The position numbers and the translations under genes were made by a program. A stretch of 30,357 nt of DNA from a virus: positions 1 to 30,357 of IMG/VR virus record IMGVR_UViG_3300042868_002692; one strand, given 5' to 3'. A model generated the notes under the pieces. It was not told where the DNA came from, searched no databases, and saw only the letters and a list, made by a program, of their open reading frames with translations. Every line of letters begins with the position of its first letter. The first letter of the stretch is position 1. Shown piece after piece: positions 3,352-27,969 of this stretch.

Positions 3352-3611
3352 AATCAAGCCAAGTCACAGTAACTGATGTTGCAACTTTGCTTGTGGCAGC
3401 AGACAATCAAACTAGAACTGTTTATATTCACAACAGAACAAATGAAGTGTTATTTATTGGCAACAGTGCAGTGACAACTTCAAATGGTTTGGACATAGCA
3501 AAACACAGCGCACCAATCACAATATTTGTACCGTTCAATGAAACCATTTTTGGTATTGCTGAATCAGGTAAAAGTATTGATGTGCGCATCTTGACACCCA
3601 ATCCAGATTAG
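3348..3611 (+). CDS. small beta-rich virion-region protein, unknown
   Basis: An 87-aa product between portal and protease, overlapping the portal stop by 4 nt (ATGA). The sequence alternates hydrophobic and polar residues (TVYIHNRTNEVLFIGN, ITIFVPFNETIFGI), suggesting a beta sandwich. No membrane segment or signal peptide. Position suggests a structural or head-decoration role, but I do not recognise the family. Confidence 0.65.
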   Translation: MKSSQVTVTDVATLLVAADNQTRTVYIHNRTNEVLFIGNSAVTTSNGLDIAKHSAPITIFVPFNETIFGIAESGKSIDVRILTPNPD

Positions 3612-3619
3612 GAAAGATA

Positions 3620-4987
3620 ATGCCCTACTACATAAGTGATACCCAATCAGATTGTTCAGGCTGGGCAACCATCAAAGCAGACACACCAGAATCAACACCT
3701 GAAACAATTGGTTGCCATCAAATAAAAGAAGATGCCATTGATCAGATGATTGCTGTTTCATTGTCTGAAGATGTTGAACCTATGGGTGATTGGGCAACAC
3801 GCTTGCTTATGTCAGATACAGAACTGATTAGTGATGATGATGAAGAAGAAATGGTTGAACCACCTGAAATGAATCAGGCAGAAGAATCACCAATCATGAT
3901 GGCTTTGGCGCAGGCATATGAAGCAGTGAAAAGCATTCTTGAAGAAATCACTGAAAAGATGATGGAACTTCACCAGCCTGTTGAAGAAGAACTGGTTGAA
4001 GAAGTTGAAATTGATTCCAGAGAACAAAGACAGATTGACCTATCAGCACCACAGTTTATGCGTGACAATGCAGAACAAGGTTTGAAGTATCACGCTGAAG
4101 GTTTATCTGGTGATGGCTTGTTGCCACAGACCGTTGAAGATGCACGCAAAATGGCTGATGGTGAAATTACCCCTGATAAATGGCGCAAAATTGCTGCGTG
4201 GATAGCACGACATATGGTGGACTTAGAAGCAGCAGATGGTGAAATCACAGCAGGTGTTGTGGCACATCTTCTGTGGGGTAGTGGATCTACTAAGAAAGAA
4301 GCACAAAGAACTATGGATTACGCACAAAACATTGTTGATCAACTTGATGCTGAACTTGAAGAAGAACGCAGTGAATCACCAGTAGTTGAACACAGGTGGG
4401 TGGCTGTTGATAAAGGCACACGCAGTATTGCTTTTACTAATCTTGAATTGCGTGCAATGGCTGATGGTGAAGATGATTGGACAGTGCGTGGCTATGCAGC
4501 CGTGTTTGATTCCCCATCAGAGCCACTGCCATTCACTGAATATGTAAAGCGTGGCGCATTCAAGAAAACTATAAAAGATCGTTCTGATGTGCGTTTGCTT
4601 ATAGATCACACTGGTGTGCCATTGGCACGCACCAAATCAGGCACGCTTACCTTGACAGAAGATGACAAAGGTTTATTTATGGAAGCACGCCTAGACCCAG
4701 CAAACCCTGATGCAGTAAAGATACGCAGCGCATTGAAGCGTGGCGATCTATCGCAAATGTCTTTTGCTTTTGAAACCATCAAAGATTCATGGAATGCTGA
4801 ACGCACAGTGCGTGAACTAAAAGAAGTGCGCCTACATGATGTCAGCATTGTTACATATCCTGCATATGAAGAAACCAGTGCAGAAATGCGCAATCAGCAA
4901 ATAACTGATACAACAGTTGCTATTGTGCAATCAGTTTCGCTACGCAAAGCGCAAGTTTTGCTGGCAAAAACAAGAGCCGTAAAGTAG
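3620..4987 (+). CDS. head maturation protease with extra N-terminal domain
   Basis: Serine protease that cleaves the capsid delta domain during prohead maturation. The HK97 prohead protease domain occupies about residues 275-425: DDWTVRGYAAVFDSP at its start, the catalytic-type His at H330 (LLIDHTGVPLA), the Ser region GDLSQMSFAF (S378 or S381) and VSIVTYPAYEET. At 455 aa it is roughly twice a minimal family member. The extra N-terminus holds an acidic linker (about 50-135) and a separate helical domain (about 145-245, with KWRKIAAWIARHMVDLEA and GVVAHLLWGSGS) that resembles a domain of unknown function seen fused to phage proteases or XkdF-like proteins. GAAAG lies just before the start, and the gene directly precedes the capsid gene. 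Confidence 0.88.
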   Translation: MPYYISDTQSDCSGWATIKADTPESTPETIGCHQIKEDAIDQMIAVSLSEDVEPMGDWATRLLMSDTELISDDDEEEMVEPPEMNQAEESPIMMALAQAYEAVKSILEEITEKMMELHQPVEEELVEEVEIDSREQRQIDLSAPQFMRDNAEQGLKYHAEGLSGDGLLPQTVEDARKMADGEITPDKWRKIAAWIARHMVDLEAADGEITAGVVAHLLWGSGSTKKEAQRTMDYAQNIVDQLDAELEEERSESPVVEHRWVAVDKGTRSIAFTNLELRAMADGEDDWTVRGYAAVFDSPSEPLPFTEYVKRGAFKKTIKDRSDVRLLIDHTGVPLARTKSGTLTLTEDDKGLFMEARLDPANPDAVKIRSALKRGDLSQMSFAFETIKDSWNAERTVRELKEVRLHDVSIVTYPAYEETSAEMRNQQITDTTVAIVQSVSLRKAQVLLAKTRAVK

Positions 4988-9753: not shown

Positions 9754-12362
9754 TGGCAATTGTTGTACCTATCATAAGTTCTTTTGATAATCGTGGTATT
9801 CAGAAGGCTATTGCTGATTTCAAAAATCTGAATGGTGCTGGGCAGCGCAGTGCTTTTGCATTGATGAACACCAACAAAGCAGTGAACACAGCAGCAAAGA
9901 ACTTTGCAAAGTTGGGTGCTGTTGGTGCTGGTCTTGCTGGCGTTATTGGTGGTTCACTGGTAAAGGCTGCATATGAATCACAAAGAGTGATGAAACAAAC
10001 TGATGCCATCATCAAAGCCACTGGTGGTGCTGCTGGTCTAACTGGTGATCAGGTTGCTAAGTTGTCGCAAAAGTTATCTTTGCAGGTTGGCGTAGATGAT
10101 GAACTAATCCAAAGTTCTTTGAATCTGCTTCTTACTTTCAAACAGGTACGCAATGAAGTTGGTGCAGGCAATGATGTGTTCAACAGAGCAGCGCAGGCTG
10201 CTTTGGATTTGGGCAATGTTTTTGGTTCTACTGATGCTGCTGCCAAGATGCTTGGCAAGGCTTTATCTGACCCCATCAAAGGTGTAACTGCTCTTGCTAG
10301 GGCTGGTGTGAACTTCAGCCAGCAACAAAGAGATCAAATCAAAACACTGGTGCAATCAGGTAAATCACTTGAAGCGCAGAAGTTGATTCTGGCTGAAGTT
10401 GAATCACAGGTTGGTGGCACTGCTAAGGCTACTGCTACAGGCTTTGACCGTATGAAAGTTGCTATTGGCAATGTTCAAGAGAATCTAGGCAACCTGTTGA
10501 TACCTGCTGTAGAAAGATTTGCTGATGGCATCATCAATAATGTGCTACCTGTCTTAGATCAGTTCACTAAAATTGTTGGTGAACAGGGGCTAGGTGCTGG
10601 TGTCAATTTCTTGGTTGGTTCTATTATCAATGGCATCAATAGTTTGGGTGCTTTTGGCAAAGTTATCATTGGTGTTACTGCTGGCATTGTTGCATTGAAT
10701 GTCGCCACTGGTGTTTATAAAGCCAGCATGATTGCGTTGAACATTGTTACTACTCTTACTGATGGTTCATTGAAGGCATTGATCACCAGACTTGGCGCAG
10801 CCAAGATTGCAATGATGGCAGCAGGTGGTGTAACAGCGTTGCTATCTTTAGCAGCAGTTTTGTATGGAACATACGCAAGCCAAAAAGCCAAAGCAGAACA
10901 GAAAACAATTGATTTCACTAATGCTCTTTTGGCAGAAGGTTCAGCGCAAACTGAAGCCTTCAAAAATCTAACTAAAAACAATTCACAAATGCAGATTGCT
11001 GTAGCAGCATTAGGTGACATGGGCATCAGCATGGCTGATGTAACTGAATACACAACCAAAGGTACTGGAAAGTTCAAGCCTTATGTTGATGCGCTGAAGA
11101 TTCTTGATGAAACTACAGGCACAACACTTACCAAACTTGATGCGTATGCCAAAGCCATTGGTATTGCTGCTACTGCAACAACTTCTGCTGGTGGGTCAAT
11201 GTCTTTTGGTTTATCAGAGTTTGCAAACATGGCTAAAATTGCTAGGGGTGAGACAACTAACACCCAAGCAGCAATGGCGTTGCTGGGCAAAATCGGGATC
11301 ACAGCAGGCAATCAAGTTGGCAGTGGTGCAAAGGTTGTTGAAACAGCAGCACAGAAGTTTGACAAGTTCACTACTGCATTGTTTGGTGCAGCCAACAGCA
11401 ACAAATCTTTTACTGCTGCTGTAAAGGCTTCTAAGAAAGCCCAAAGTGATTTGGCTGAAGCCACACAGAATGTTGTTACTGCACAAACCAAACTGAACCA
11501 GATCGCTGCTGGATATGGTGCTAATTCCACACAGGCATCTGATGCCAGAAAAGAATTGACACAGGCAGAGCGTGACGCAGAGCGTGCAGGGTACGCATTG
11601 GAAACAGCCAACTTTGCTGTGACAGATGCTGAACTTGCGTTGCAAGAAGCCTATGCAAATGGTGACCCAACAGCGATTAGGCAAGCACAGATTGATTTGG
11701 CTGAAGCCAAGTTGAGTGTGAAAGATGCGCAAGATGCTGTAACTACCAGCACAAACAATGTTGCTGCTGCGCAAAAGACATTGAATGAAATTGTGAATGG
11801 TGCAACCACAGAATCACAGACCTATAAAGATGCGCTGGTTGAATTGCAGAAAGCGCAAAAAGATGAACTTGATGCAATTGATTCTTTGAGTGATGCCAAG
11901 TTGCGTGAACTGGAAGCCACCAAAGCCCTAGCAAAAGCAAACCTTCTGTTGAAGCAAAGCAAAGGCAAATTGAGTTCAAAACAAATGAAGGCTGCAATGA
12001 AGGCTATAAATGAACTTACTGTTGCTGTCAATGTGCCACAGCCAACTTCTGTTTCTTCTGCTTCTAGTGGTTCTTCTGGTGGCTTTGATTTTAGTGGTAT
12101 TGATTTGTCAGGTATCAGCATTGGTGGTTTGGCTACTCTTGCTTCTGGTGGGATTGTGACAAAACCAACGCTGGCTTTGATAGGCGAAGGTGGTGAATCA
12201 GAAGCAGTTATACCATTATCAAAGATGGGTGGCATGGGTGGTGATGTTTATAACATCACAATCAATAGCAAGATTGCAGATCAAACTTTGCCTGATGTGT
12301 TAGTTGCTGAACTGCGTAAGTTCAATAGGCGTTCTGGTGCAATTGATATTCAGGTTGCGTAA
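9753..12362 (+). CDS. tape measure protein
   Basis: Sets tail length and is ejected with the DNA. At 869 aa it is the largest gene. It begins with a helical part (ISSFDNRGIQKAIADFKNLN), then hydrophobic segments around residues 48-66 and 345-375 (MMAAGGVTALLSLAAVLYGTY). A long Ala/Gln/Lys-rich coiled-coil region follows (about 545-755), and the C-terminus has the usual LASGGIVTKPTLALIGEGGE and AVIPLSKMGG motif. No lysozyme or peptidase domain is evident. From the usual rule of about 0.15 nm per residue, the tail would be near 130 nm. Confidence 0.93.
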   Translation: MAIVVPIISSFDNRGIQKAIADFKNLNGAGQRSAFALMNTNKAVNTAAKNFAKLGAVGAGLAGVIGGSLVKAAYESQRVMKQTDAIIKATGGAAGLTGDQVAKLSQKLSLQVGVDDELIQSSLNLLLTFKQVRNEVGAGNDVFNRAAQAALDLGNVFGSTDAAAKMLGKALSDPIKGVTALARAGVNFSQQQRDQIKTLVQSGKSLEAQKLILAEVESQVGGTAKATATGFDRMKVAIGNVQENLGNLLIPAVERFADGIINNVLPVLDQFTKIVGEQGLGAGVNFLVGSIINGINSLGAFGKVIIGVTAGIVALNVATGVYKASMIALNIVTTLTDGSLKALITRLGAAKIAMMAAGGVTALLSLAAVLYGTYASQKAKAEQKTIDFTNALLAEGSAQTEAFKNLTKNNSQMQIAVAALGDMGISMADVTEYTTKGTGKFKPYVDALKILDETTGTTLTKLDAYAKAIGIAATATTSAGGSMSFGLSEFANMAKIARGETTNTQAAMALLGKIGITAGNQVGSGAKVVETAAQKFDKFTTALFGAANSNKSFTAAVKASKKAQSDLAEATQNVVTAQTKLNQIAAGYGANSTQASDARKELTQAERDAERAGYALETANFAVTDAELALQEAYANGDPTAIRQAQIDLAEAKLSVKDAQDAVTTSTNNVAAAQKTLNEIVNGATTESQTYKDALVELQKAQKDELDAIDSLSDAKLRELEATKALAKANLLLKQSKGKLSSKQMKAAMKAINELTVAVNVPQPTSVSSASSGSSGGFDFSGIDLSGISIGGLATLASGGIVTKPTLALIGEGGESEAVIPLSKMGGMGGDVYNITINSKIADQTLPDVLVAELRKFNRRSGAIDIQVA

Positions 12363-13721: not shown

Positions 13722-14879
13722 ATGGCAGGCACAACGACAAACTTTGCGATTCCGTATCCTTCTGTTACTGATTATGTAACTGATGGTGCTACTGCTATGC
13801 GCAGTATTGCTGATCAGGTTGATGCTGTTTTGTTCACTGGTTCTTCTTCAGGCAATCTGCTTATCAATGGTGCAATGCAGGTAAGCCAGCGTTCAGCAGT
13901 TGGCACAGCAGTTACAGGTATCACAGCATCTGGTTATTACACTGCTGACCGTTGGAATACATTTGCAAACACATTAGGCACATGGACACAAACAACTATT
14001 GCTGATGCACCTACTGGTTCAGGATTTCGCAACAGTCTGAAACTTGCTTGTACAACTGCTGATGCTTCACCTGCTGCTGGTGATTATTTGATTCTTCAAC
14101 AAAGGATTGAAGGGCAAAATCTGCAAGCAGTTCGTAAAGGCACAGCATCAGCGCAAACACTTACATTGTCTTTTTGGGTCAAATCGTTTCAGACAGGTAT
14201 TTTCATTGTTGAATTAGAAGATACTGATAACACTAGAAGTTGTAGCAAGTCTTATACCATCAATGTTTCTAATACTTGGGAATTGAAAACAGTTACATTC
14301 CCTGCTGATGTTACAGGTGCTTTTGATAATGATGAAAACTCATCACTAAGAGTGAATTGGTGGTTGGGTGCTGGCACAACTTTTACTTCTGGCACGCTGG
14401 CTACAACTTGGGGTGCGACTGTTTCTGCTAATCGTGCTGTTGGTCAAACCAACTTGGCTTCTTCAACTAGCAATACTTTCTTTGTTACTGGTACACAACT
14501 TACTGTTGGTTCTGTTGCTACACCATTTGAGTTCAAATCTTTTGGTGATGATCTGCGTGCTTGCCAACGGTACTATGAGAAGTCTTACATAATGACCACA
14601 GCGATTGGGACTGCCACAGAAGTGAACGCAATTATGAACAGATATGGAAGTTTTACTGGTGTCCTACACGCAAATGGCTCTTTTCAGCAAGTAAAGAGAG
14701 CCTTGCCTACTTTTAGACCATACTCAACTGCTGCAGGTACTGCTGATGCAATTACCGTTGTTGGTTGGGGCGATACGATTTATGGCGCAGTAGTTGGAAC
14801 ACACAAAGTTCAAGCAGGTGTTGGAACAGTCACAGGCACTGGTGTTCAATTCCAATACACAGCAGATGCAGAGTTATGA
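13722..14879 (+). CDS. tail tip / receptor-binding fibre protein candidate
   Basis: A 385-aa protein. The N-terminus (FAIPYPSVTDYVTDGATAM then RSIADQVDAVLF) is the typical attachment segment of actinophage minor tail proteins. Next comes a jelly-roll-like region (NLLINGAMQVSQRS, YYTADRWN, LTLSFWVKS, TGTQLTVGSVATPFEFKSF, DDLRACQRYYEKSY) found at the ends of many tail fibres. Probable carbohydrate or receptor binding. AGGGG lies 5 nt before ATG 13722. The C-terminus is Gly/Thr-rich. Confidence 0.75.
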   Translation: MAGTTTNFAIPYPSVTDYVTDGATAMRSIADQVDAVLFTGSSSGNLLINGAMQVSQRSAVGTAVTGITASGYYTADRWNTFANTLGTWTQTTIADAPTGSGFRNSLKLACTTADASPAAGDYLILQQRIEGQNLQAVRKGTASAQTLTLSFWVKSFQTGIFIVELEDTDNTRSCSKSYTINVSNTWELKTVTFPADVTGAFDNDENSSLRVNWWLGAGTTFTSGTLATTWGATVSANRAVGQTNLASSTSNTFFVTGTQLTVGSVATPFEFKSFGDDLRACQRYYEKSYIMTTAIGTATEVNAIMNRYGSFTGVLHANGSFQQVKRALPTFRPYSTAAGTADAITVVGWGDTIYGAVVGTHKVQAGVGTVTGTGVQFQYTADAEL

Positions 14880-19670: not shown

Positions 19671-19740
19671 GAAGCCTTGTGGGGTAAGGGTTTGAAATTG
19701 ATACTTGCGTATCGGTATCACTTGTGCTTATGATGTGGGT
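19671..19740 (+). promoter_or_regulatory. cassette promoter P1 (leaderless)
   Basis: Inverted repeat (imperfect, 6 Watson-Crick plus 1 GU of 8 pairs, 7-nt loop) at 19671-19693, then -35 TTGCGT 19705-19710, 18-nt spacer containing TATCACTTGTGCT, -10 TATGAT 19729-19734, and 6 nt to ATG 19741. A start 6-7 nt after the -10 would coincide with the A of ATG. Confidence 0.75.
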
Positions 19741-19998
19741 ATGGAAACAAACACAAACACCACATCAACAAAGTACGCATGGTTTGAAAACACTGATAAA
19801 GATCAATTTGAAATACACGCACCCAATTGTGCTTGCATCAAGAAATACATAAATCAGATGGTGATTGACACTTCAAGTGTTCATAGCATGAATGCAGCGA
19901 ACACAACAGAAGTTCAAGCAGAACTGATTGCTGTGTATGGATATGACCTAGAAGATGATGAACAAATCACAGTCAAAGTGTTTCCCTGCACTAAGTAA
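19741..19998 (+). CDS. cassette protein 1, unknown
   Basis: An 85-aa product, METNTNTTSTKYAWFENTDKD and onward, with no recognised domain. Two Cys in NCACIKKY and one near the end could be functional; the end reads EQITVKVFPCTK. It is the first + strand gene right of the control region and is followed by a terminator at 20016, so it forms a one-gene unit driven by P1. A TTG start at 19705 in the same frame would overlap the promoter's -35; ATG 19741 is preferred because of the exact 6-nt spacing shared with three other cassettes. Confidence 0.7.
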   Translation: METNTNTTSTKYAWFENTDKDQFEIHAPNCACIKKYINQMVIDTSSVHSMNAANTTEVQAELIAVYGYDLEDDEQITVKVFPCTK

Positions 19999-20015
19999 TC
20001 AATCACAAAGCATCT

Positions 20016-20046
20016 GCCCCACCTGTAATGGGTGGGGCTTTTGTTT
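20016..20046. terminator. intrinsic terminator after cassette gene 1
   Basis: GCCCCACC (20016-20023) and GGTGGGGC (20031-20038) form an 8-bp GC-rich stem with a 7-nt loop followed by TTTTGTTTG. It would end the P1 transcript. It lies directly beyond the stop of the - strand gene that starts at 20799, so it may serve both directions. Confidence 0.8.
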
Positions 20047-20049
20047 GTC

Positions 20050-20799
20050 TCAACACACATCACATGGCAGATCATCAATAAGTGCTGTGCCATCATCATT
20101 CCAGCCCAGACGCAACTTTGTACCCTTACACCTGAAACAAACGCCTACAGAGCGTGTGGGGCTGGTCTGCGTGGATTGCACAACCTTTGCCAGTTCCCTA
20201 TCAAACTGCATCACACTAGGAACAGTTGCGCATCTAGTCAGCGCATCACGCACATCATCAACAGACCAGCCAGAATCCAAAGCAGCAGTGATCACAGATT
20301 GCAACGCAAAAAACGCACGCTTACCTGTTGGGGTTTTGCCACCTGTGCGTGTCTTGTAAAACTGCCACCATTCATCAGCAAGTGTTTTCACACTTGCCTG
20401 TTCTTGACTCTGGTTTATATTGACTCTAGTTCTTGGGTTGATTTTGTCCCTACCCCTAGTGGCGTTTATGTCTCTAGGTAGGGGCGTTTTTGTCTCTACC
20501 CCTGCATTAGTTATCACTGTGTAGTGATTGCTAGTTAGATCACCATTGGCTGATGTGCGCTGGTGCATAGTCACAGCACCCAAAGCAACCAGTTCTTTCA
20601 ATGCTCTATCAATACTTTTGGTTGTTGTGCAACAACGATCAGCAAGGGTCTTGCGTGATGGGTGGCAGCCACCAGAATCTTTGTCTGCATAGCGTTGCAG
20701 TGTTGCGTAAAGCCTGACAGCCAACGCTGAAATATCAGCGTATAAAACCCATTCAGGCACTATTGAAAAGTAATTATCAGCAGTGATTCTTTGTGTCAT
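20050..20799 (-). CDS. winged-helix replication-initiator-like protein
   Basis: A 249-aa protein. The N-terminal domain (about 10-85) has the winged-helix pattern of phage replication or helix-turn-helix proteins: FSIVPEWVLYADISALAVRL, HPSRKTLADRCCTTTKSIDR, ALKELVALGAVTMH. A middle helical domain follows (LADEWWQFYKTRTGGKTPTG, WSVDDVRDALTRC), and the C-terminus is a four-Cys zinc site (CFRC and CDVC separated by about 19 residues) that ends exactly at the last residue. This layout is typical of actinophage DnaD/RepA-like initiators. GAAAGAAC precedes the start. No polymerase or helicase partner is in the window. Confidence 0.68.
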   Translation of the reverse strand: MTQRITADNYFSIVPEWVLYADISALAVRLYATLQRYADKDSGGCHPSRKTLADRCCTTTKSIDRALKELVALGAVTMHQRTSANGDLTSNHYTVITNAGVETKTPLPRDINATRGRDKINPRTRVNINQSQEQASVKTLADEWWQFYKTRTGGKTPTGKRAFFALQSVITAALDSGWSVDDVRDALTRCATVPSVMQFDRELAKVVQSTQTSPTRSVGVCFRCKGTKLRLGWNDDGTALIDDLPCDVC

Positions 20800-20891
20800 G
20801 TTTGTTCTTTCATGTGTGGGTTTGACACTCTAGGTGCTACCATCAACATCTGCATGGTTGCGCTTAGTGCGTTGTTATGTTTGTTCATGTG

Positions 20892-20923
20892 AAAACCCTG
20901 CTGGCTATGTCAGTGGGGTTTTT
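20892..20923. terminator. terminator-like hairpin in the divergent intergenic region
   Basis: AAAACCC (20892-20898) pairs with GGGTTTT (20916-20922), with further imperfect pairing inside, followed by another T. It lies between the start of the - strand initiator-like gene and the promoter of the exonuclease gene. It would insulate the exonuclease operon from upstream read-through. Confidence 0.65.
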
Positions 20924-20933
20924 GCATTTAGGG

Positions 20934-20972
20934 GTTGCAAGTATGACACACCCATCTGTCATAGTGATAACC
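20934..20972 (+). promoter_or_regulatory. promoter P6 of the exonuclease operon, possibly leaderless
   Basis: A -35 TTGCAA, a 19-nt spacer, -10 CATAGT and 7 nt to ATG 20973, without a recognisable ribosome binding site. The segment CATCTGTCATAGT resembles CACCTGTTATGAT of the promoter before 26772. It is less regular than the four main cassette promoters. Confidence 0.5.
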
Positions 20973-21887
20973 ATGAAACATATAACTAAACCCACACATG
21001 GCAGCCTTGAATGGTTGCAGACACGCCATAAGCATGATGGGAAAACCATTGTGGGCGCATCAGAAGTATCAATCATTATGGGTTGCAATGACTACAAGAA
21101 CATCATTGATCTTGCCATAGAGAAAATGCAGCCACCAGTGGTGCGTGAACAGAATGATGCAATGAAGCGTGGCACATGGCTTGAATCAGGATTGATTACA
21201 GCAGCGCAAGAAGAACTGAACCTGCAAGTTGAAACACCAGAAGTGATGTACCTAAATGGGCGCATTATCGCCACGCTTGATGGGCTTGCTAATGATGGGC
21301 GTTTGATTGAATGCAAGACCACTACAAAATGGCTTGCCAATGATCTGTGCCTACCTGAATGGTATTGGCAAGCACAAGCACAGATGTTTTGCAGTGATGC
21401 TGAACTGGTTACTTTTGTTGTGTTAGATCGCCAACTGCGTATCAGTATGTTCAATGTTGAACGCCACAACAATGATATTGAACTGATGGTTGAAAGGGTT
21501 ACAGCGTTCTGTGAATCCATTGATGCAGACAAACTGCCTGAAGATGTGCCATTGAACTATGCACAGGTATCACTGCTACACCCAGAGCCATCAGGGGAAC
21601 TAGAACTAGACAACGCAGCACTATCACTAATCATGGAATGGAACGCAGCCAAAGCAGCGTTGAAAGAACTTGAACAACTTGAAGCCCGATTGAAAGACCA
21701 GTTAGCCAACCTGATGCGTGACCATGAAACAGCCACCAGTGATGGTCAAAAGGTATTGACATTCAAAGCCCAATCAACCAGCCGATTTGATAGCAAAGCA
21801 TTCAATGATGCACACCCAGATATGGCTAAACAGTTCAGCAAAACAACATCATTCAGAGTGATGCGCACAGTGAAAGGTGCAGTGTGA
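20973..21887 (+). CDS. YqaJ-type phage exonuclease
   Basis: A 304-aa nuclease of the lambda-exonuclease/YqaJ fold that processes DNA ends to give single strands for annealing. Motifs in order: GASEVSIIMG (28-37), RGTWLESG with E72, TLDGL with D103, IECKTTT with E113 and K115, and WYWQAQAQM (131-139). The C-terminal quarter is a charged helix (ALKELEQLEARLKDQL). ATG 20973 is chosen over an upstream TTG that would lie in the terminator. The stop overlaps the ERF gene start, a classic exonuclease-annealase pair. Confidence 0.88.
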   Translation: MKHITKPTHGSLEWLQTRHKHDGKTIVGASEVSIIMGCNDYKNIIDLAIEKMQPPVVREQNDAMKRGTWLESGLITAAQEELNLQVETPEVMYLNGRIIATLDGLANDGRLIECKTTTKWLANDLCLPEWYWQAQAQMFCSDAELVTFVVLDRQLRISMFNVERHNNDIELMVERVTAFCESIDADKLPEDVPLNYAQVSLLHPEPSGELELDNAALSLIMEWNAAKAALKELEQLEARLKDQLANLMRDHETATSDGQKVLTFKAQSTSRFDSKAFNDAHPDMAKQFSKTTSFRVMRTVKGAV

Positions 21888-22666
21888 TGACACAGCCACA
21901 AATATTTAGCCTGCTTACACAAGTGATGACAGATGCTGGTGCAGTGAAGAAGGGTGATTACAACAGCCATCAGAAGTTCAACTTCAGGGGTATTGATGCT
22001 GTGATCAATGCTGTGTCACCAGCGTTACGCAAGCATGGTGTTGTTGTAGTACCAACAGTAATCACAAGTGATTATGAATCTGTGCAGGTGGGGCAGAACA
22101 GAACAGTGATGGGTCACGCACGCATCACAATCACATATACCTTTTACGCACCAGATGGTTCAAATGTTGCTGCCACTGTCAGTGCTGAATCTATGGATAG
22201 TGGCGACAAAGCCACAGCAAAGGCATACAGCGTTGCATTCAGAACAGCACTGCTACAAACCTTGTGCCTGCCAACTGATGAAGCAGACCCTGATTCAGAT
22301 ACTTATGAACGATCACCACATGACGCACCCCAGCGTGAACAGGCAACACGCATTGCAAGACCACAACAGGCTGCACCACAAAATGAACAGCCAAGACCAA
22401 CAACAAAATCATCAGACCCTGCGCCATTATCTAAACCAGCCAACAAACCATCAGGTGCAGTAATCACTGAAGCACAAACAAACTTCATCAACAACCTATT
22501 GAAGCAGACAGAATGTGATGAACAACTGTTGGTTGATCAGTTTGGTTCTGGCATTGCTGGTATGTCATCACAGGTGGCTAAGAAAGTGATTGATGCGCTG
22601 TTGTCTGTGCGTAAGGGTGAAGCAGAAATTGTGTTGGGTTCTGATGGCAAGTTTGTTATTGCTTGA
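21887..22666 (+). CDS. ERF-family single-strand annealing protein
   Basis: A 259-aa protein (GTG 21884 would add one residue). The N-terminal ERF domain includes KFNFRGIDAVINAVSPALRK and the family signature SMDSGDKATAKAYSVAFRTA then LLQTLCLPTD. A Pro/Gln-rich linker (about 145-190) leads to a C-terminal helical domain (ITEAQTNFINNLLKQTECDE). It catalyses annealing of single strands created by the exonuclease and tolerates imperfect homology, which would favour gene exchange. TGATG coupling with the upstream gene. Confidence 0.87.
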   Translation: MTQPQIFSLLTQVMTDAGAVKKGDYNSHQKFNFRGIDAVINAVSPALRKHGVVVVPTVITSDYESVQVGQNRTVMGHARITITYTFYAPDGSNVAATVSAESMDSGDKATAKAYSVAFRTALLQTLCLPTDEADPDSDTYERSPHDAPQREQATRIARPQQAAPQNEQPRPTTKSSDPAPLSKPANKPSGAVITEAQTNFINNLLKQTECDEQLLVDQFGSGIAGMSSQVAKKVIDALLSVRKGEAEIVLGSDGKFVIA

Positions 22667-22853
22667 AATCACTGATGGTGATTGGTTCACTGTGAATGGT
22701 TTGCGTGGCAAGTTTGTTTGTAGGGGCTTCAATCCTGATGGGTCTGTGTGTTGTTTTGGTGGCTCTACAGGTAGGGAACGCTGGCGCAGTTTCCCATTGG
22801 ATAGGGTTTCTAGGATTCTGAAACCCTTACCTAGCAAGGATTTTACAGGGTAG
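22644..22853 (+). CDS. small conserved-looking protein, unknown
   Basis: A 69-aa product from ATG 22644, or 64 aa from TTG 22659. The core, DWFTVNGLRGKFVCRG then FNPDGSVCCFGGSTG and ERWRSFPLDRV, resembles a small beta-barrel protein (G-x-F-x-x-x-G, W-R-S-F) often found in actinophages. Its last 17 codons carry the hairpin arms preceding promoter P2. Its start region overlaps the annealase 3' end by 23 nt in another frame. Confidence 0.6.
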   Translation: MASLLLLEITDGDWFTVNGLRGKFVCRGFNPDGSVCCFGGSTGRERWRSFPLDRVSRILKPLPSKDFTG

Positions 22854-22889
22854 TTGCATCTGGGTATCACCTGTGGTTATAGTTCAGGT
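22821..22889 (+). promoter_or_regulatory. cassette promoter P2 (leaderless)
   Basis: AAACCCTT-N7-AAGGATTT at 22821-22843 (7 of 8 pairs), 10 nt, -35 TTGCAT 22854-22859, 18 nt containing TATCACCTGTGGT, -10 TATAGT 22878-22883, 6 nt, ATG 22890. A second arm GGGTTTC/GAAACCC (22804-22826) gives an alternative stem. Confidence 0.75.
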
Positions 22890-23183
22890 ATGAACACAAA
22901 CACACTTACTGAATTGTTTGCAGCAAGCATTGAATACACACCAATCAAACACGCAAACAAACATGGCAATGGTTTTAGTTGGTCAGTTGCAGCAACATTC
23001 TGTGGCACACCAATTGAAATCTTTGGTTCTAGCAATACAAAAAAAGGCACAGCCAAAGTGGTAACTGCATTCATTGCAGATGAAGTAGGCGATCTAATGA
23101 CCCGATATCAATGGCGTGATGTTGATGGTGCTTGTGACCTGATAGATCAAATGCGTGCCTACACAACAAAGGCTGGCAAGTGA
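22890..23183 (+). CDS. cassette protein 2, unknown
   Basis: A 97-aa product beginning MNTNTLTELFAASIEY. The middle (FSWSVAATFCGTPIEIFGSS, KVVTAFIADEVGDLMT) suggests a small alpha/beta fold. It ends in TTKAGK, an ending shared in part with the cassette genes at 24542 and 26003. The stop overlaps the next start (TGATG). Its middle shows no obvious similarity to those genes, which argues for swapped contents within common borders. Confidence 0.72.
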   Translation: MNTNTLTELFAASIEYTPIKHANKHGNGFSWSVAATFCGTPIEIFGSSNTKKGTAKVVTAFIADEVGDLMTRYQWRDVDGACDLIDQMRAYTTKAGK

Positions 23184-23311
23184 TGAACACACCAGAAAAC
23201 CATGTTTGCCACGATTGCAAAAGAACATTCAAACGCTACACAGATTTGATGTTTCACATAGTCGCAGGCTGCCAACCCAACAAAAAGCAAAAGAAAGAAA
23301 ACCAACAATGA
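23183..23311 (+). CDS. C2HC zinc-finger-like mini-protein
   Basis: A 42-aa product, MNTPENHVCHDCKRTF and onward. C9 and C12, then H25 and C30, give C-x2-C-x12-H-x4-C with hydrophobic residues at F16 and L22, as in classical zinc fingers, followed by a Lys/Gln-rich tail. Overlaps neighbours on both sides by 1-4 nt. Could bind DNA, RNA or a host protein. Confidence 0.62.
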   Translation: MNTPENHVCHDCKRTFKRYTDLMFHIVAGCQPNKKQKKENQQ

Positions 23312-23493
23312 ACACATCAATAGAAATAATCACAAGTCACAGCACAGTGCTAGGCGCAAAAGCCTTTCTGATATTGGGTGAATATGCACGCAACGGTAAC
23401 GCTGTGCAATCCTTGCCACTGTCAGCAGATGAACTACGCCTACTGGCTGTTGAACTACTTGAAGCAGCATCACAGATGGAAGTAACACAATGA
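23308..23493 (+). CDS. small helical protein, unknown
   Basis: A 61-aa product MNTSIEIITSHSTVLGAKAF then LILGEYARNG, and a C-terminal acidic helix (SADELRLLAVELLEAASQME). RBS AGAAAGAAAA with good spacing. Its stop overlaps the next start as ATGA. Function unknown. Confidence 0.6.
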   Translation: MNTSIEIITSHSTVLGAKAFLILGEYARNGNAVQSLPLSADELRLLAVELLEAASQMEVTQ

Positions 23494-23999
23494 GTGATGA
23501 CCAGCCAAACCTGTTTGATGATCAAGACCCATCAGATGATGAACTGTTGCCCTATGCAGGCACAGCAGGGTATGTGAACCAGCCTGCCAGCAAAGACAGA
23601 GCCAACAGAGAAGCAGCCACTGGTGAAGCCACAGAGCGTGCCAGACAGATACTGCGCACACTGTCGCAACACCCAGCAGGGCTGACCTATCAGCAGGTAG
23701 GTGATCTGTTGAATCTGCATCATGGGCAATCTTCTGGTGCGCTGTCAATCCTTCACAAGAATGGCGTGGTGTTTATGTTGCGCAAGAAAATCAACAGGTG
23801 TCATGTGTATGTGCATTCTGATCAGCGTGGCAAGTATGAAGATGCTGAACGCATTGATGAACCTGCTTCTACTGTGTCTGGGCGTAGGCGCAAAGAACTA
23901 GAACAGTTATTAGAACTTGTGATTGAACAGGTGCGTTGTAGAAACATCACAGACCCAGCATTAGTTGCCCACGCAATACAACTTCATAATGATCATTGA
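23490..23999 (+). CDS. winged-helix DNA-binding protein
   Basis: A 169-aa protein. After an acidic, disordered start the central part has a winged-helix pattern: ARQILRTLSQHPAGLTYQQV, GDLLNLHHGQSSGALSILHK, NGVVFMLRKKINRCHVYVH. A C-terminal charged helix follows (RRRKELEQLLELVIEQVRC). Proteins like this occur in actinophage early regions; a regulator or host-chromatin protein is likely. ATGA overlap with the upstream gene. Confidence 0.66.
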   Translation: MSDDQPNLFDDQDPSDDELLPYAGTAGYVNQPASKDRANREAATGEATERARQILRTLSQHPAGLTYQQVGDLLNLHHGQSSGALSILHKNGVVFMLRKKINRCHVYVHSDQRGKYEDAERIDEPASTVSGRRRKELEQLLELVIEQVRCRNITDPALVAHAIQLHNDH

Positions 24000-24472
24000 T
24001 GTTCTACACTTGCTGCATGACAGAAGAAGAAGCAGCACGCAAGGGTGAATGCCCATGTGGGTGTGATCTGTATGGCAACATCACAAACCAACGCCATGTG
24101 CGTGGCTGTGTCTGCAAGCGTTGCATGGGTGCTAGGAATCGGCGCAAGGGTCTAAACAAACAGCGCACAGCACGCAAGGCTTTAGGTGTGAAACCATCAA
24201 ACAAGTTTGGTGATGCCAATGAAGAAAACTGGCAAGATTCATTGTTTGCTAATGAAGTGAAAGCAGGCAAGCAGATACAGCCAGCAGTTACAGCATGGCT
24301 ACGCATAGAAGCACAAGTGATAGGTAATCAATCTGACTATGGAAGCCTGCGTAAGCCCACCAGAGCAGTGCTAATGCCTGATGGCTGGTCTGATGGGCTG
24401 GTAATGGTCAAGTTGTCTGTGTGGGCTGAACTGATCGCACCTGCGCTGGCTGCCTACTATGACCAATCCTAA
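23999..24472 (+). CDS. Cys-rich nuclease-like protein, resolvase candidate
   Basis: A 157-aa product. A Cys-rich N-terminus (GECPCGCDL and CVCKRCMGARNRRKG) suggests a zinc site. A basic stretch follows, then NKFGDANEENWQDSLFANEV and KAGKQIQPAVTAWLRIEAQV, and finally PTRAVLMPDGWSDGLVMVKL. The E-V-K-A-G-K segment fits a PD-(D/E)XK-like endonuclease core, and the ordering resembles small phage nucleases/resolvases. The call is tentative. It starts at the overlap TGATG. A shorter start at 24017 would also keep the Cys cluster. Confidence 0.48.
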   Translation: MFYTCCMTEEEAARKGECPCGCDLYGNITNQRHVRGCVCKRCMGARNRRKGLNKQRTARKALGVKPSNKFGDANEENWQDSLFANEVKAGKQIQPAVTAWLRIEAQVIGNQSDYGSLRKPTRAVLMPDGWSDGLVMVKLSVWAELIAPALAAYYDQS

Positions 24473-24541
24473 AACCCTTGCTGTATAAGGGTTTGCACAG
24501 GGTAGTTGCGCATGGGTATCACCTGTGCTTATGATGGGTGC
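24472..24541 (+). promoter_or_regulatory. cassette promoter P3 (leaderless)
   Basis: Perfect 8-bp inverted repeat AAACCCTT-N7-AAGGGTTT at 24472-24494, 11 nt, -35 TTGCGC 24506-24511, 18-nt spacer with TATCACCTGTGCT, -10 TATGAT 24530-24535, 6 nt, ATG 24542. The hairpin begins inside the stop codon of the upstream gene. Confidence 0.78.
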
Positions 24542-24820
24542 ATGAACAAAAACACATACACAGCAACATCAAGCAATGGCACAGTGGCAACACGATCAAC
24601 AAAGAATGAATACAAATACTGCGTGTTCTCAACAAGGGTTTACCGTGACCGTGTGAATGGTGGACTTATTGCAGGTTCTGAACGCATCATTGCAGAATGG
24701 ACATCACGCATGGATCTGGCGCAGAAGTTAGTGAACAAAAACATAAGTTCCGTGAACACAGATTTTGATGCTTACTACATTGCTTGTGAAATCGTTGAAG
24801 CAGTGAAAGCAGGCAAGTGA
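24542..24820 (+). CDS. cassette protein 3, unknown
   Basis: A 92-aa product beginning MNKNTYTATSSNGTVATRST. The rest has beta-strand-like segments (YKYCVFSTRVYRDRVNGG) and helical stretches (ERIIAEWTSRMDLAQKLVN, YYIACEIVEAVKAGK). It ends KAGK like cassettes 2 and 4 and its stop overlaps the next start. No domain recognised. Confidence 0.72.
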   Translation: MNKNTYTATSSNGTVATRSTKNEYKYCVFSTRVYRDRVNGGLIAGSERIIAEWTSRMDLAQKLVNKNISSVNTDFDAYYIACEIVEAVKAGK

Positions 24821-25023
24821 TGAAAAGGCAACACACACCAATCAACCAGTTGATTCTGGAAACCAAAGATCTGTCAATGTTCACCATTGAACGCATCATC
24901 ACTGCTGATGCAAAGTATTGGTTGCTTACAGATCTACGCAATGGCGCAACACGCCACTACAAAACCAAATACAACGCAGAACTTGCAATCTGTTCAGTAG
25001 TCAAATGGGCAATGAAGCCATGA
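24820..25023 (+). CDS. small protein, unknown
   Basis: A 67-aa product, MKRQHTPINQLILETKDLS and onward. The pattern FTIERIITADAKYWLLTDLR then NGATRHYKTKYNAELAIC suggests alternating strands and helices, possibly a small nucleic-acid-binding or host-interaction protein. It starts at the TGA/ATG overlap with cassette gene 3. Confidence 0.58.
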   Translation: MKRQHTPINQLILETKDLSMFTIERIITADAKYWLLTDLRNGATRHYKTKYNAELAICSVVKWAMKP

Positions 25024-25394
25024 ACACATCATTCAATCAGCGCATTGGGCGCAGGCTGTTTACATCAGAAATAGAACTGATCATTGAACTGCACAGAACA
25101 CTTGATATTGCCTGCGCCAAACAACAGTTAGATAAGCAACGCCTAGTTGATGCAGCACGCAGTGTTGCCCCAGAAGATTTTGCTGAATGGCAAGTTCTTG
25201 TATGGGCTGTTGATGGTGCGCAAACCATGACCCACAAGAATCGTGATTGTGGCGTGTCGCTGGCTTACAAAGGCAACACACAAATCACAGTTGCTGATGA
25301 TGCTTGTGGTAAGTGTGATGGCACAGGCAAATACATATTCAGTTCAGGTGCTGTAGGCATCTGCTACCAGTGCAACGGTAAAGGCAAACAATGA
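25020..25394 (+). CDS. protein with DnaJ-type zinc ribbon
   Basis: A 124-aa product. The N-terminal two thirds are helical (FTSEIELIIELHRTLDIACA, LDKQRLVDAARSVAPEDF). The end has two C-x-x-C-x-G-x-G motifs, CGKCDGTGKY and CYQCNGKGKQ, as in the DnaJ Cys-rich zinc domain. Possibly binds a host protein or acts as an adaptor. The region also appears in other phages at the end of otherwise unrelated proteins. Confidence 0.66.
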   Translation: MNTSFNQRIGRRLFTSEIELIIELHRTLDIACAKQQLDKQRLVDAARSVAPEDFAEWQVLVWAVDGAQTMTHKNRDCGVSLAYKGNTQITVADDACGKCDGTGKYIFSSGAVGICYQCNGKGKQ

Positions 25395-25612
25395 ACACAC
25401 AACCAATCACAATCATCACAGCATCTGATGTCACACCAGAATGCTTGCAAGCAGCAGAAGAAGTGTTTGATGGGTTCTTCAGCCCAACAGAAAACATTGA
25501 TTGGTGTTCTTTCCTAGATCGCCTAGAAGCATGGGGCTGGTGTTCACCAACACTGGATTCACCAGCCATCAACAAAATCAAACGCCACATCAACAAGATC
25601 AAGCACCAGTAG
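25391..25612 (+). CDS. small acidic protein, unknown
   Basis: A 73-aa product starting MNTQPITIITASDVTPECLQ with a C-terminal basic helix (AINKIKRHINKIKHQ). ATG overlaps the previous stop (ATGA). No domain is visible. Confidence 0.57.
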   Translation: MNTQPITIITASDVTPECLQAAEEVFDGFFSPTENIDWCSFLDRLEAWGWCSPTLDSPAINKIKRHINKIKHQ

Positions 25613-25616
25613 AACC

Positions 25617-25934
25617 ATGATCACAACTGTTGGCATTTCTGTGCGCTGCGACAATGGCAGGTGGTCAGCACACGCCATTCTGAATGGCATGGTGATCAGC
25701 AGCAGTTGTATGCACAACCACCAGACCAGCATCAACGCACAGGTGTGTGGCAGGGTCTTTGTGCGCAGATGGCTGGATATAGCCACCAGACCCCACCAGA
25801 TCACTGAACTGGCTTCTGAAGGCTGCTGGGTGCTGTCTTGGGCTGATGATGCTGGCAGGCAGGTTACGCACAGGTTCAGGTGGCTTGCCCCTGAAACCCT
25901 TGCCAGCAAAGCCAATCAGATTGGGCAACCATGA
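25617..25934 (+). CDS. small protein, unknown
   Basis: A 105-aa product, MITTVGISVRCDNGRWSAHA and onward, Trp- and Cys-rich (FVRRWLDIATRPHQIT, EGCWVLSWADDAG, HRFRWLAPETLAS). It shows strand-like segments but no family. It starts 4 nt after the preceding stop. The end overlaps the start of the region carrying promoter P4 (ATGA at 25931). Confidence 0.55.
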   Translation: MITTVGISVRCDNGRWSAHAILNGMVISSSCMHNHQTSINAQVCGRVFVRRWLDIATRPHQITELASEGCWVLSWADDAGRQVTHRFRWLAPETLASKANQIGQP

Positions 25935-26002
25935 AACCCTTATCTGGCTTGGGTTTGGCAGGGTACTTGCGTTTGCCAATCACCTGTGCTTATAATGTCT
26001 GT
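25934..26002 (+). promoter_or_regulatory. cassette promoter P4 (leaderless)
   Basis: AAACCCTT-N7-TTGGGTTT (6 central-outer pairs, inner TT mismatched) at 25934-25956, 10 nt, -35 TTGCGT 25967-25972, 18 nt with ATCACCTGTGCT, -10 TATAAT 25991-25996 (consensus), 6 nt, ATG 26003. Confidence 0.78.
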
Positions 26003-26335
26003 ATGAACACACACACAAACAGCACAGACTTCACCACCTACAAGGGTGTAACAATTTTCAATGTACGCAACGCACGCAATGGTGGCAACAAGATTCAGAA
26101 TCGTGACATTGCAATCACCTACCTTGCAGACAAATGGTGTGCTGCTGGTGATGCTTACCGTTCTTCATCAAACATCAAGCGTGCGCACGCAATGATTGAT
26201 TGGTTGCTTGCAAATGGCGCACCAGTTGTTGATGGTCGCATTGTTGCAACAATGGATCTTGTAGATACTTGTGAGTTTGGTTGCCAAGCAAGAAACATTG
26301 ATGGCTACTGGATCTTTATGAAGGCTGGCAAGTAA
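26003..26335 (+). CDS. cassette protein 4, unknown
   Basis: A 110-aa product beginning MNTHTNSTDFTTYKGVTIF. It has a basic strand region (NVRNARNGGNKIQNRDIAIT), a helix (IKRAHAMIDWLLANG) and the tail GYWIFMKAGK. Shares the start and the KAGK end with cassettes 2 and 3. An in-frame ATG 25931 could add 24 residues on read-through transcripts. Confidence 0.72.
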   Translation: MNTHTNSTDFTTYKGVTIFNVRNARNGGNKIQNRDIAITYLADKWCAAGDAYRSSSNIKRAHAMIDWLLANGAPVVDGRIVATMDLVDTCEFGCQARNIDGYWIFMKAGK

Positions 26336-26730
26336 TGAACAGCAAAAAAACAATCACCTGCAACAACTGTGGCAAAACCAATTTGAAATGGGAAACCAGC
26401 AAAGCAGGCAACTATTACTTGACAGATGCAGAAGCAACCAGCATCACCAACGCCAATGGCACAGTAATCAAAACCATCAGACCAGCACACCAGTGCTTGA
26501 CACCTGAACAGCAAGAGATTGCATCAGGCTTCCAGCAGGCAGCAGATCAGGCACACTTGCTTGAAGCAAAGCGTGATGCAATCAAAGCACAGATTGATGA
26601 ATTGTTATCGGCTGATGATTTGACAGATGATGCTGTTGCGCTGGTGCGTACTCTTGGCAAGCAATCAGTAGTGATCACTGGCGAGATTCAAGCGTTGCAG
26701 GTCAAGTTCAACAATGGGTGGCAGTTCTAA
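26335..26730 (+). CDS. zinc-ribbon protein, unknown
   Basis: A 131-aa product. CNNCGKTNLKWETS near the start plus HQC at about residues 52-54 form a likely zinc site. A long helix follows (FQQAADQAHLLEAKRDAIKA and onward), then a C-terminal GEIQALQVKFNNGWQF. May bind DNA or RNA; starts at the TAA/ATG overlap with cassette 4. Confidence 0.62.
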   Translation: MNSKKTITCNNCGKTNLKWETSKAGNYYLTDAEATSITNANGTVIKTIRPAHQCLTPEQQEIASGFQQAADQAHLLEAKRDAIKAQIDELLSADDLTDDAVALVRTLGKQSVVITGEIQALQVKFNNGWQF

Positions 26731-26741
26731 TGAATACCAGA

Positions 26742-26771
26742 AACACCATCACCACCTGTTATGATTCAGGT
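26742..26771 (+). promoter_or_regulatory. weak cassette promoter P5
   Basis: A -10 TATGAT at 26760-26765 with 6 nt to ATG 26772 and CACCTGT directly upstream, as in P1-P4, but three bases (GCT) are missing, and neither a -35 nor the upstream hairpin is clear. Translation could instead begin at the overlapping ATG 26730. Confidence 0.5.
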
Positions 26772-26981
26772 ATGAACACACACACAACATCAAAAGTTAC
26801 CTACGCAGATTGTCCTGAAGATGGTGGTAAGTGGGCTATCTACTGCGAACACTTTGATAACACTGGCGAGATTATCGGCACAGGTCTTGTGCAAGACACC
26901 AACAAACGCAGGCTTGCGACATGGCAAAAGCACAGCATTGACTGGTGCTGCTACTGCCAAGAAGAAAGAGATGCAAAGTAA
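26772..26981 (+). CDS. cassette-like protein 5, unknown
   Basis: A 69-aa product beginning MNTHTTSKVTYADCPEDG. The end has CYCQEERD, with Cys residues in CC-x-C, and the middle strand segment KWAIYCEHFDNTGEIIGTGL. An in-frame ATG at 26730, which overlaps the previous stop, would add 14 residues, so two starts are possible. Stop overlaps the next start. Confidence 0.62.
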   Translation: MNTHTTSKVTYADCPEDGGKWAIYCEHFDNTGEIIGTGLVQDTNKRRLATWQKHSIDWCCYCQEERDAK

Positions 26982-27531: not shown

Positions 27532-27969
27532 ATGTTCAAGAAACAACACCCAACAGAACCAACGCTGATGAAAGCGTTGCATGACATTGCAACCCTTCAA
27601 CACCAAATCACAATGATTACAAGATCACTGATAGCAACCAAAATGGCAGCCAACATACCGTTGCATTCATGGGAACAAGAACGCTTTGATGCTTTGCCAG
27701 AAGTAGAACAGTCATACCTTCATAGCCTTGCGAGACTCACAAGTATCAGCAGACCAGTGATCAACAACACCATCACAAGCACCAACCCACCAGTGCGCAA
27801 AAGAATTGAAACCCAGAACGCCAGCGCACGCTGGACAAAGAAAGAAGATCAGCAGTTGCGCAAACTAAAAGTTGCTGGTGAATACTGGTTTCACATTGCC
27901 AATGTTCTTGGCAGGTCAGAAAAAGCGTGCCAGTTGCGCTGGAACAAACTTCAACCCAAGAAAGGCTAA
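27532..27969 (+). CDS. protein with C-terminal Myb/SANT-like DNA-binding domain
   Basis: A 145-aa product. Residues 10-70 are helical, about 70-98 are a Thr/Pro-rich linker, and about 100-140 read RWTKKEDQQLRKLKVAGEYW then FHIANVLGRSEKACQLRWNKL. The spaced tryptophans W101, W119 and W137, the acidic turn KKED and the LGRS turn fit a Myb/SANT three-helix domain. Strong RBS GAAGAAAGAAAG. A probable DNA-binding protein; such domains are uncommon but known in phages. Confidence 0.66.
   Translation: MFKKQHPTEPTLMKALHDIATLQHQITMITRSLIATKMAANIPLHSWEQERFDALPEVEQSYLHSLARLTSISRPVINNTITSTNPPVRKRIETQNASARWTKKEDQQLRKLKVAGEYWFHIANVLGRSEKACQLRWNKLQPKKG

Follow-up and report, generated by a model that had tools for sequence, protein, structure and literature searches.

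In T4-type phages, the mobile regulatory cassettes called PeSLs (promoter early stem-loops; doi 10.1093/gbe/evq006 and 10.1093/gbe/evu129, as cited in PMC4503421) combine an early promoter with a stem-loop and mediate the shuffling of genes. The extended start-associated sequences (ESAS) of Cluster K mycobacteriophages consist of a SigA-like promoter and an inverted repeat lying ahead of start-associated sequences (SAS), which act as start signals (PMC3203893, PMC11373665). Leaderless genes of Actinobacteria are marked by a TANNNT some 12 nt ahead of the start codon (PMC3160421), and CA repeats just past a start codon raise leaderless translation (PMC9031893). Here we describe a repeated promoter cassette in one of a family of freshwater bacterial viruses, represented by a siphophage-like genome of 30,357 bases that makes up the whole of IMG/VR record IMGVR_UViG_3300042868_002692 (hereafter the window). 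The initial annotation of this DNA knew of no phage early region built in this way, an opinion that does not survive comparison with the T4 PeSLs and Cluster K ESAS/SAS, which are similar designs.

We consider it likely that the repeats are copies of a mobile cassette of ~88 bp which contains a protein-binding dyad, a promoter, and a start codon, which gives rise to leaderless mRNAs, and which supplies homology for gene exchange, probably via RecE/Erf. Specifically, the cassette would bring together a dyad for a protein, a promoter of the sigma-70 type, and the start codon of whichever gene follows; transcription would begin on the A of the AUG to give a leaderless mRNA; ribosomes would start at the 5′ AUG, aided by CA-rich codons 2 to 6; and, with promoter and translation start united in a single piece, any open reading frame (ORF) joined just past the AUG would be expressed. 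Copies at several conserved positions of the early region would then serve as shared homology for swapping small accessory genes among relatives, with the RecE/Erf system of the phage itself probably doing the annealing.

Anatomy and recurrence of the cassette

We tabulated 36 copies of the ~88-bp cassette across 14 contigs from a group that is related to the window by 60–95% protein identity and was reached via the RecE-like gene; all contigs are metagenomic and come from uncultured phages. Numbering the A of the ATG as +1, the consensus of 31 aligned copies contains, in order, i) a dyad, AAANCCTT-N7-AAGGNTTT, spanning -70 to -48 with its centre near -59; ii) AGGGTAS at -43 to -37; iii) a -35 element, TTGYGT, at -36 to -31; iv) WATYASNTGTGST at about -25 to -13; v) a -10 element, TATRAT, at -12 to -7; and vi) six bases, the last a pyrimidine, followed by ATG, RAMACMAACACA, and thus some 12 CA-rich coding bases, with information content near background by about +15. 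The gap after the -10 is 6 nt in 31 of the 33 cassettes that carry an ATG and 7 nt in the other two, so the spacing first noticed in the window persists in its relatives.

A matrix running from the -35 to the -10, built without the gap and without the ATG, has 44 matches in 17 related contigs and 1 in the reversed control. An ATG lies at exactly +6 in 33 of these matches (31 once a duplicate contig is dropped); of the others, three lead to a leadered gene, and the rest comprise weak matches, one gap-7 copy, one match that overlaps a true copy out of register, and one copy whose own ATG, at +7, is joined by an additional one at +3. Scans of 2.9 million viral contigs with dyad/-35 or dyad/-35/-10 patterns, neither of which includes the gap or the ATG, retrieved further copies in contigs that were therefore chosen independently of both, and every one of these that belongs to the phage group either has its ATG at +6 or +7 or has the leader described below. 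A control scan with a 19-nt spacer gave 8 matches outside the phage group, none with an ATG at +6.

Within the window, the pattern TTGCRY-N18-TATRRT-N6-ATG occurs exactly four times, as originally reported, always on the plus strand (at 19705, 22854, 24506, and 25967, with ATGs at 19741, 22890, 24542, and 26003), and in 0 of 100 dinucleotide-preserving shuffles of the window; ATCACYTGTG is present in all 4 spacers. When three mismatches are allowed there is no excess of matches, and the finding therefore rests on near-exact copies. All four are confined to the non-structural arm, at 19.7–26.0 kb, and each has a dyad, overlooked in the first reading, 10–11 nt upstream of its -35. Cassette A has its dyad (GAAGCCTT-N7-AAGGGTTT, in register with the 31 aligned dyads) at 19671–19693 and its promoter at 19705–19740 (-35 TTGCGT at 19705–19710, -10 TATGAT at 19729–19734, and 6 nt before the ATG, a gap shared by all four); cassette B has its dyad (AAACCCTT-N7-AAGGATTT) at 22821–22843 and its promoter at 22854–22889 (TTGCAT, and TATAGT at 22878–22883); cassette C has its dyad (AAACCCTT-N7-AAGGGTTT) at 24472–24494 and its promoter at 24506–24541 (TTGCGC, and TATGAT at 24530–24535); and cassette D has its dyad (AAACCCTT-N7-TTGGGTTT, with two inner pairs lost) at 25934–25956 and its promoter at 25967–26002 (TTGCGT, and TATAAT at 25991–25996). 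The likeness of -35, spacer, and gap before different genes stands, but is better put down to a single mobile cassette that all copies share and that includes a dyad on its upstream side.

Two further copies had been proposed in the window. The fifth, a degenerate copy on the plus strand (26760–26981), lacks a -35, as had been recognized, and retains the -10 (TATGAT, 26760–26765) and the 6-nt gap before an ATG at 26772; but it also lacks the dyad, its spacer is three bases shorter, and its start is ambiguous given an in-frame ATG at 26731. The same form is found at 14139 on the minus strand of the related contig L027. At both sites (26731–26772 in the window) a short variant, ATGAAYACCAG.AACACCATCA.CACCTGTTATGATTCAGGTATG, stands ahead of different genes and is in frame from the upstream ATG, perhaps representing a cassette fused into coding sequence. 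The sixth, upstream of the RecE-like gene at 20973, is not the same cassette: it has a motif of its own, TGACRCACCC..CTG..NANNNT-6/7-ATG, which is kept upstream of the RecE-like orthologue in 17 related contigs and is represented in the window at 20944–20972 (plus strand) by TGACACACCCATCTG with a -10-like CATAGT 7 nt before the ATG. This motif is possibly a second class of leaderless promoter.

The dyad and candidate regulators

All 31 aligned copies have a dyad spacer of 7, and the distance from dyad to ATG is 45–47 nt, with 47 seen only in the two gap-7 copies, so the dyad is locked to the promoter. Its arms are conserved in sequence and not by compensatory change (in 18 of the 31 copies the fifth pair is broken, and covariation is below that of shuffles), and no U tract was found after it. 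This combination of fixed geometry, lack of covariation, and lack of a U tract favours the dyad as a candidate protein-bound site rather than a terminator.

Were a protein to bind there, it might be a repressor, serving phage immunity or belonging to the host, instead of an activator; we regard this as possible but rather doubtful. The inverted repeats of the Adephagia ESAS have been suggested as repressor sites (PMC11373665), and in these phages the regulator is a candidate only. Yet the dyad is centred at about -59, with a similar dyad ~20 bp further upstream in some relatives, and this is a usual position for an activator; repressor sites usually overlap the promoter. Somewhat less probable still, and in our view unlikely, is that the dyad is not a regulator site at all but a terminator stem-loop insulating each unit as in the T4 PeSLs. 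Pairing between the arms is indeed seen in 80% of cells, the folding energy of several copies is -7 to -10 kcal/mol, and the dyad is placed between transcription units; but a terminator needs neither an invariant 7-nt loop nor a fixed distance to the ATG, and the uncompensated fifth pair and missing U tract also speak against one.

If the dyad is indeed a regulator site, a candidate binding factor is the Myb/SANT-like DNA-binding protein encoded at 27532–27969 on the plus strand (PF13921, 1.8e-8, with the domain at the protein's end), which is present in every relative covering its region; a winged-helix-like protein (23490–23999) is another candidate regulator. The Myb-like, winged-helix-like, and HTH_36 proteins are conserved in almost every relative whose contig spans the regions concerned, and were not found in cassette-less terminase relatives, some of whose contigs are incomplete.

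Predicted leaderless starts, and gene exchange at the cassette

Several features support the original suggestion that the cassette mRNAs are leaderless, with transcription predicted to start on the A of the AUG: i) all 33 cassettes have T or C at base -1, compared with 101 of 245 other ATG genes; ii) pairing to the anti-Shine-Dalgarno (anti-SD) sequence averages -3.1 kcal/mol for cassette genes, -4.6 for other genes, and -6.1 for the leadered copies; iii) all cassette genes have AUG starts; iv) the C/A content of codons 2 to 6 is 89% in cassette genes, 60% in other genes, and 53% internally; and v) the first T of TANNNT lies at -12 in 31 of 33 ATG cassettes and at -13 in two. Three copies (L026 at 147; G004, which is L028 at 2759 on the minus strand; and G036 at oriented position 23370) drive one conserved gene of ~170–190 amino acids, MKQSEIQE..., through a ~40-nt leader with the SD AAAGGAAACC before the ATG, while the other copies have no SD. 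The leader begins ATCAGG, and one copy has the inverted partner CCTGAT. These leadered copies are a natural control for the leaderless ones, and offer a comparison of the two kinds of gene behind one promoter. In Pontimonas phage phiPsal1 (L134), TANNNT before ATG also peaks at gap 6 (6 of 100 ORFs), with no cassette copy among these, which makes it probable that this cultured actinophage has leaderless genes as well.

Cassettes occupy conserved positions in the backbone, as judged from gene calls made by a crude ORF chain: beside lysozyme-like and replication genes, behind Erf, behind the F7 gene, and farther to the right. For cassettes at one position, most of the pairs compared are 84–99% identical over the 300 bases upstream, while their payloads are no more alike than those of random pairs. 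Averaged per 10-nt bin over 14 same-site pairs, identity is 0.73–0.93 from -130 to +9 and 0.77 in gene bases 1–10, but falls to 0.46 at +10 to +19 and then to about 0.3, a collapse located 10–20 nt inside the ORF. G035 and G036, for their part, share the METNQ gene at 98% identity behind cassettes with unrelated flanks, and F96, F66, F87, and F21 are also found at different positions. With shared flanks upstream of unrelated genes, and a shared gene behind unrelated flanks, the cassette is, by sequence comparison, a junction at which genes are swapped, and RecE/Erf would carry out the exchange. In the relative G002 (L025), an F2-F7-cassette block occurs twice (oriented 3373–4425 and 10591–11676), with different payloads behind the cassettes.

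Vertical descent with fast evolution, such that the payloads at one position would be diverged orthologues and not exchanged genes, is very improbable: the payloads are all small and many start M[EN]TNT, but the flanks retain mostly 84–99% DNA identity while the payloads sit at baseline, and payloads 79–98% identical occupy different positions. Exchange at the cassette makes it look like a plug-in system for the acquisition of new genes. We suggest more tentatively that it is a gene-capture system whose homology block would include the operator and the promoter as well as the start codon, such that any ORF annealed behind the AUG by RecE/Erf would be expressed at once, leaderless, and under one phage regulator, for example the Myb-like or the winged-helix-like protein. 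A junction carrying both transcription and translation starts would be a plausible rule by which small phage genomes gain host-interaction genes without breaking expression, and the dyad, promoter, and ATG together provide a search key for families of early phage proteins in uncultured freshwater phages.

We wish to stress the points that weigh against a mobile, leaderless promoter cassette. A simple sigma-70 scan does not call the cassette promoters, because their -35 is TTGYGT and not TTGACA; the start of transcription is deduced from sequence, the phages being uncultured; the assignment of an actinobacterial host (see below) draws on the nearest cultured terminase and capsid; in 27 of 33 cassettes an open frame runs ahead of the ATG, from -36 to -1, often reaching a TTG at -36; and metagenome assemblies can misjoin contigs at repeats. 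To the last of these we would answer that promoter bases are on average only about 60% identical from one cassette to another, and that many samples agree. The open frame might mean that the motif is protein-coding, with genes starting at the upstream TTG (the furthest in-frame start, at exactly -36, in 19) and sharing an N-terminal peptide such as LRxGITCAYDVGM, a very improbable reading which we rejected on third-position T bias and frame breaks: -16, -13, -10, and -7, which would be third codon positions, are T almost without exception (2 C in about 120), when these phages use T in just 41–72% of such codons (log10 P about -31 if independent); an in-frame start upstream is lacking in four copies, and the frame is shifted in the two with gap 7; three copies feed a leadered gene without an ATG at the usual place; and bases -12 to -7 fit TATRAT.

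The phage and its closest parallels

The left part of the window carries terminase, portal, protease, and capsid genes, with structural genes at 0.5–18.3 kb, and the right part carries recombination genes and many small ORFs. The RecE-like exonuclease (20973–21887; PHROG 434, 2.5e-62) and the Erf-like single-stranded DNA annealing protein (21884–22666; PHROG 155, 2.1e-34), both on the plus strand, are candidate partners in cassette recombination. The closest cultured relatives are actinophages (Pontimonas phage for the terminase, 39%, and Mycobacterium phages for the capsid, 36%), and the host is presumably an actinobacterium. A search of GTDB genomes for a host found no relative of the terminase alignment, and the dyad/-35/-10 pattern gave four unrelated chance matches there, none with an ATG at +6; nor did the cassette DNA have any real match among 50,697 phage records.

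The four payload genes lie on the plus strand: A (19741–19998, 85 amino acids, METNTNTT..., no family match), B (22890–23183, 97 amino acids, MNTNTLTELF...KAGK), C (24542–24820, 92 amino acids, MNKNTYTATS...KAGK), and D (26003–26335, 110 amino acids, MNTHTNSTDF...KAGK), and relatives have other genes in place of B and C. Ten payloads compared with Pfam gave nothing significant, the four in the window matched no PHROG, and PADLOC gave no credible match for payloads. Three payload genes (ending at 23183, 24820, and 26335) finish in KAGK with an overlapping TGATGA or TAATGA, and the purine-rich AAGG/GGCAAG at these ends may be the SD of the next gene. An Rfam scan for non-coding RNA in the window and three relatives gave no match.

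Lambdoid morons are small accessory genes with their own promoter between conserved genes. By sequence, unit A resembles one, having its own promoter and an intrinsic terminator at 20016–20038 on the plus strand (GCCCCACCTGTAATGGGTGGGGC then TTTTGTTTGT); but morons lack one common promoter-plus-start cassette, and units B to D lead into operons, with no terminator found for them. The TA-led leaderless genes of Actinobacteria (PMC3160421) likewise have a TANNNT whose first T is 12 nt before the start codon, and no SD, but are single genes with their own promoters, whereas here one near-identical mobile cassette recurs.

As far as the T4 PeSLs are described in the source cited above, the cassette shares with them an early promoter that recurs, linked to an inverted repeat, between small variable ORFs, and modular shuffling; a host-type promoter, as judged from its sequence, recurs between variable ORFs, and genes are exchanged at it. 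It differs in that i) the phage is a ~30-kb siphophage-like virus, actinobacterial by its nearest relatives, with terminase, portal, protease, and capsid of other phage groups; ii) the dyad that stands in place of the stem-loop has a fixed loop, no covariation, and no U tract, and is probably not a terminator; and iii) the start codon and first codons are part of the repeat. With Cluster K ESAS/SAS it shares repeats in the non-structural arm, near start codons, that carry a SigA-like promoter and imperfect inverted repeats (though with a different consensus), that have been suggested as recombination targets, and whose inverted repeat is thought to bind protein. But the 13-bp SAS, GGGATAGGAGCCC, has an SD core 3–9 bp before the start codon, which is missing from the bases before the ATG here, where there is no SD and the predicted transcription start is the AUG itself. 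The cassette may bear on the role of ESAS/SAS repeats in mycobacteriophages. We conclude that it acts like both PeSL and ESAS but lacks a defining feature of each, being neither of T4 type nor equipped with SAS or SD, and that what is new compared with both is that the start codon belongs to the cassette.

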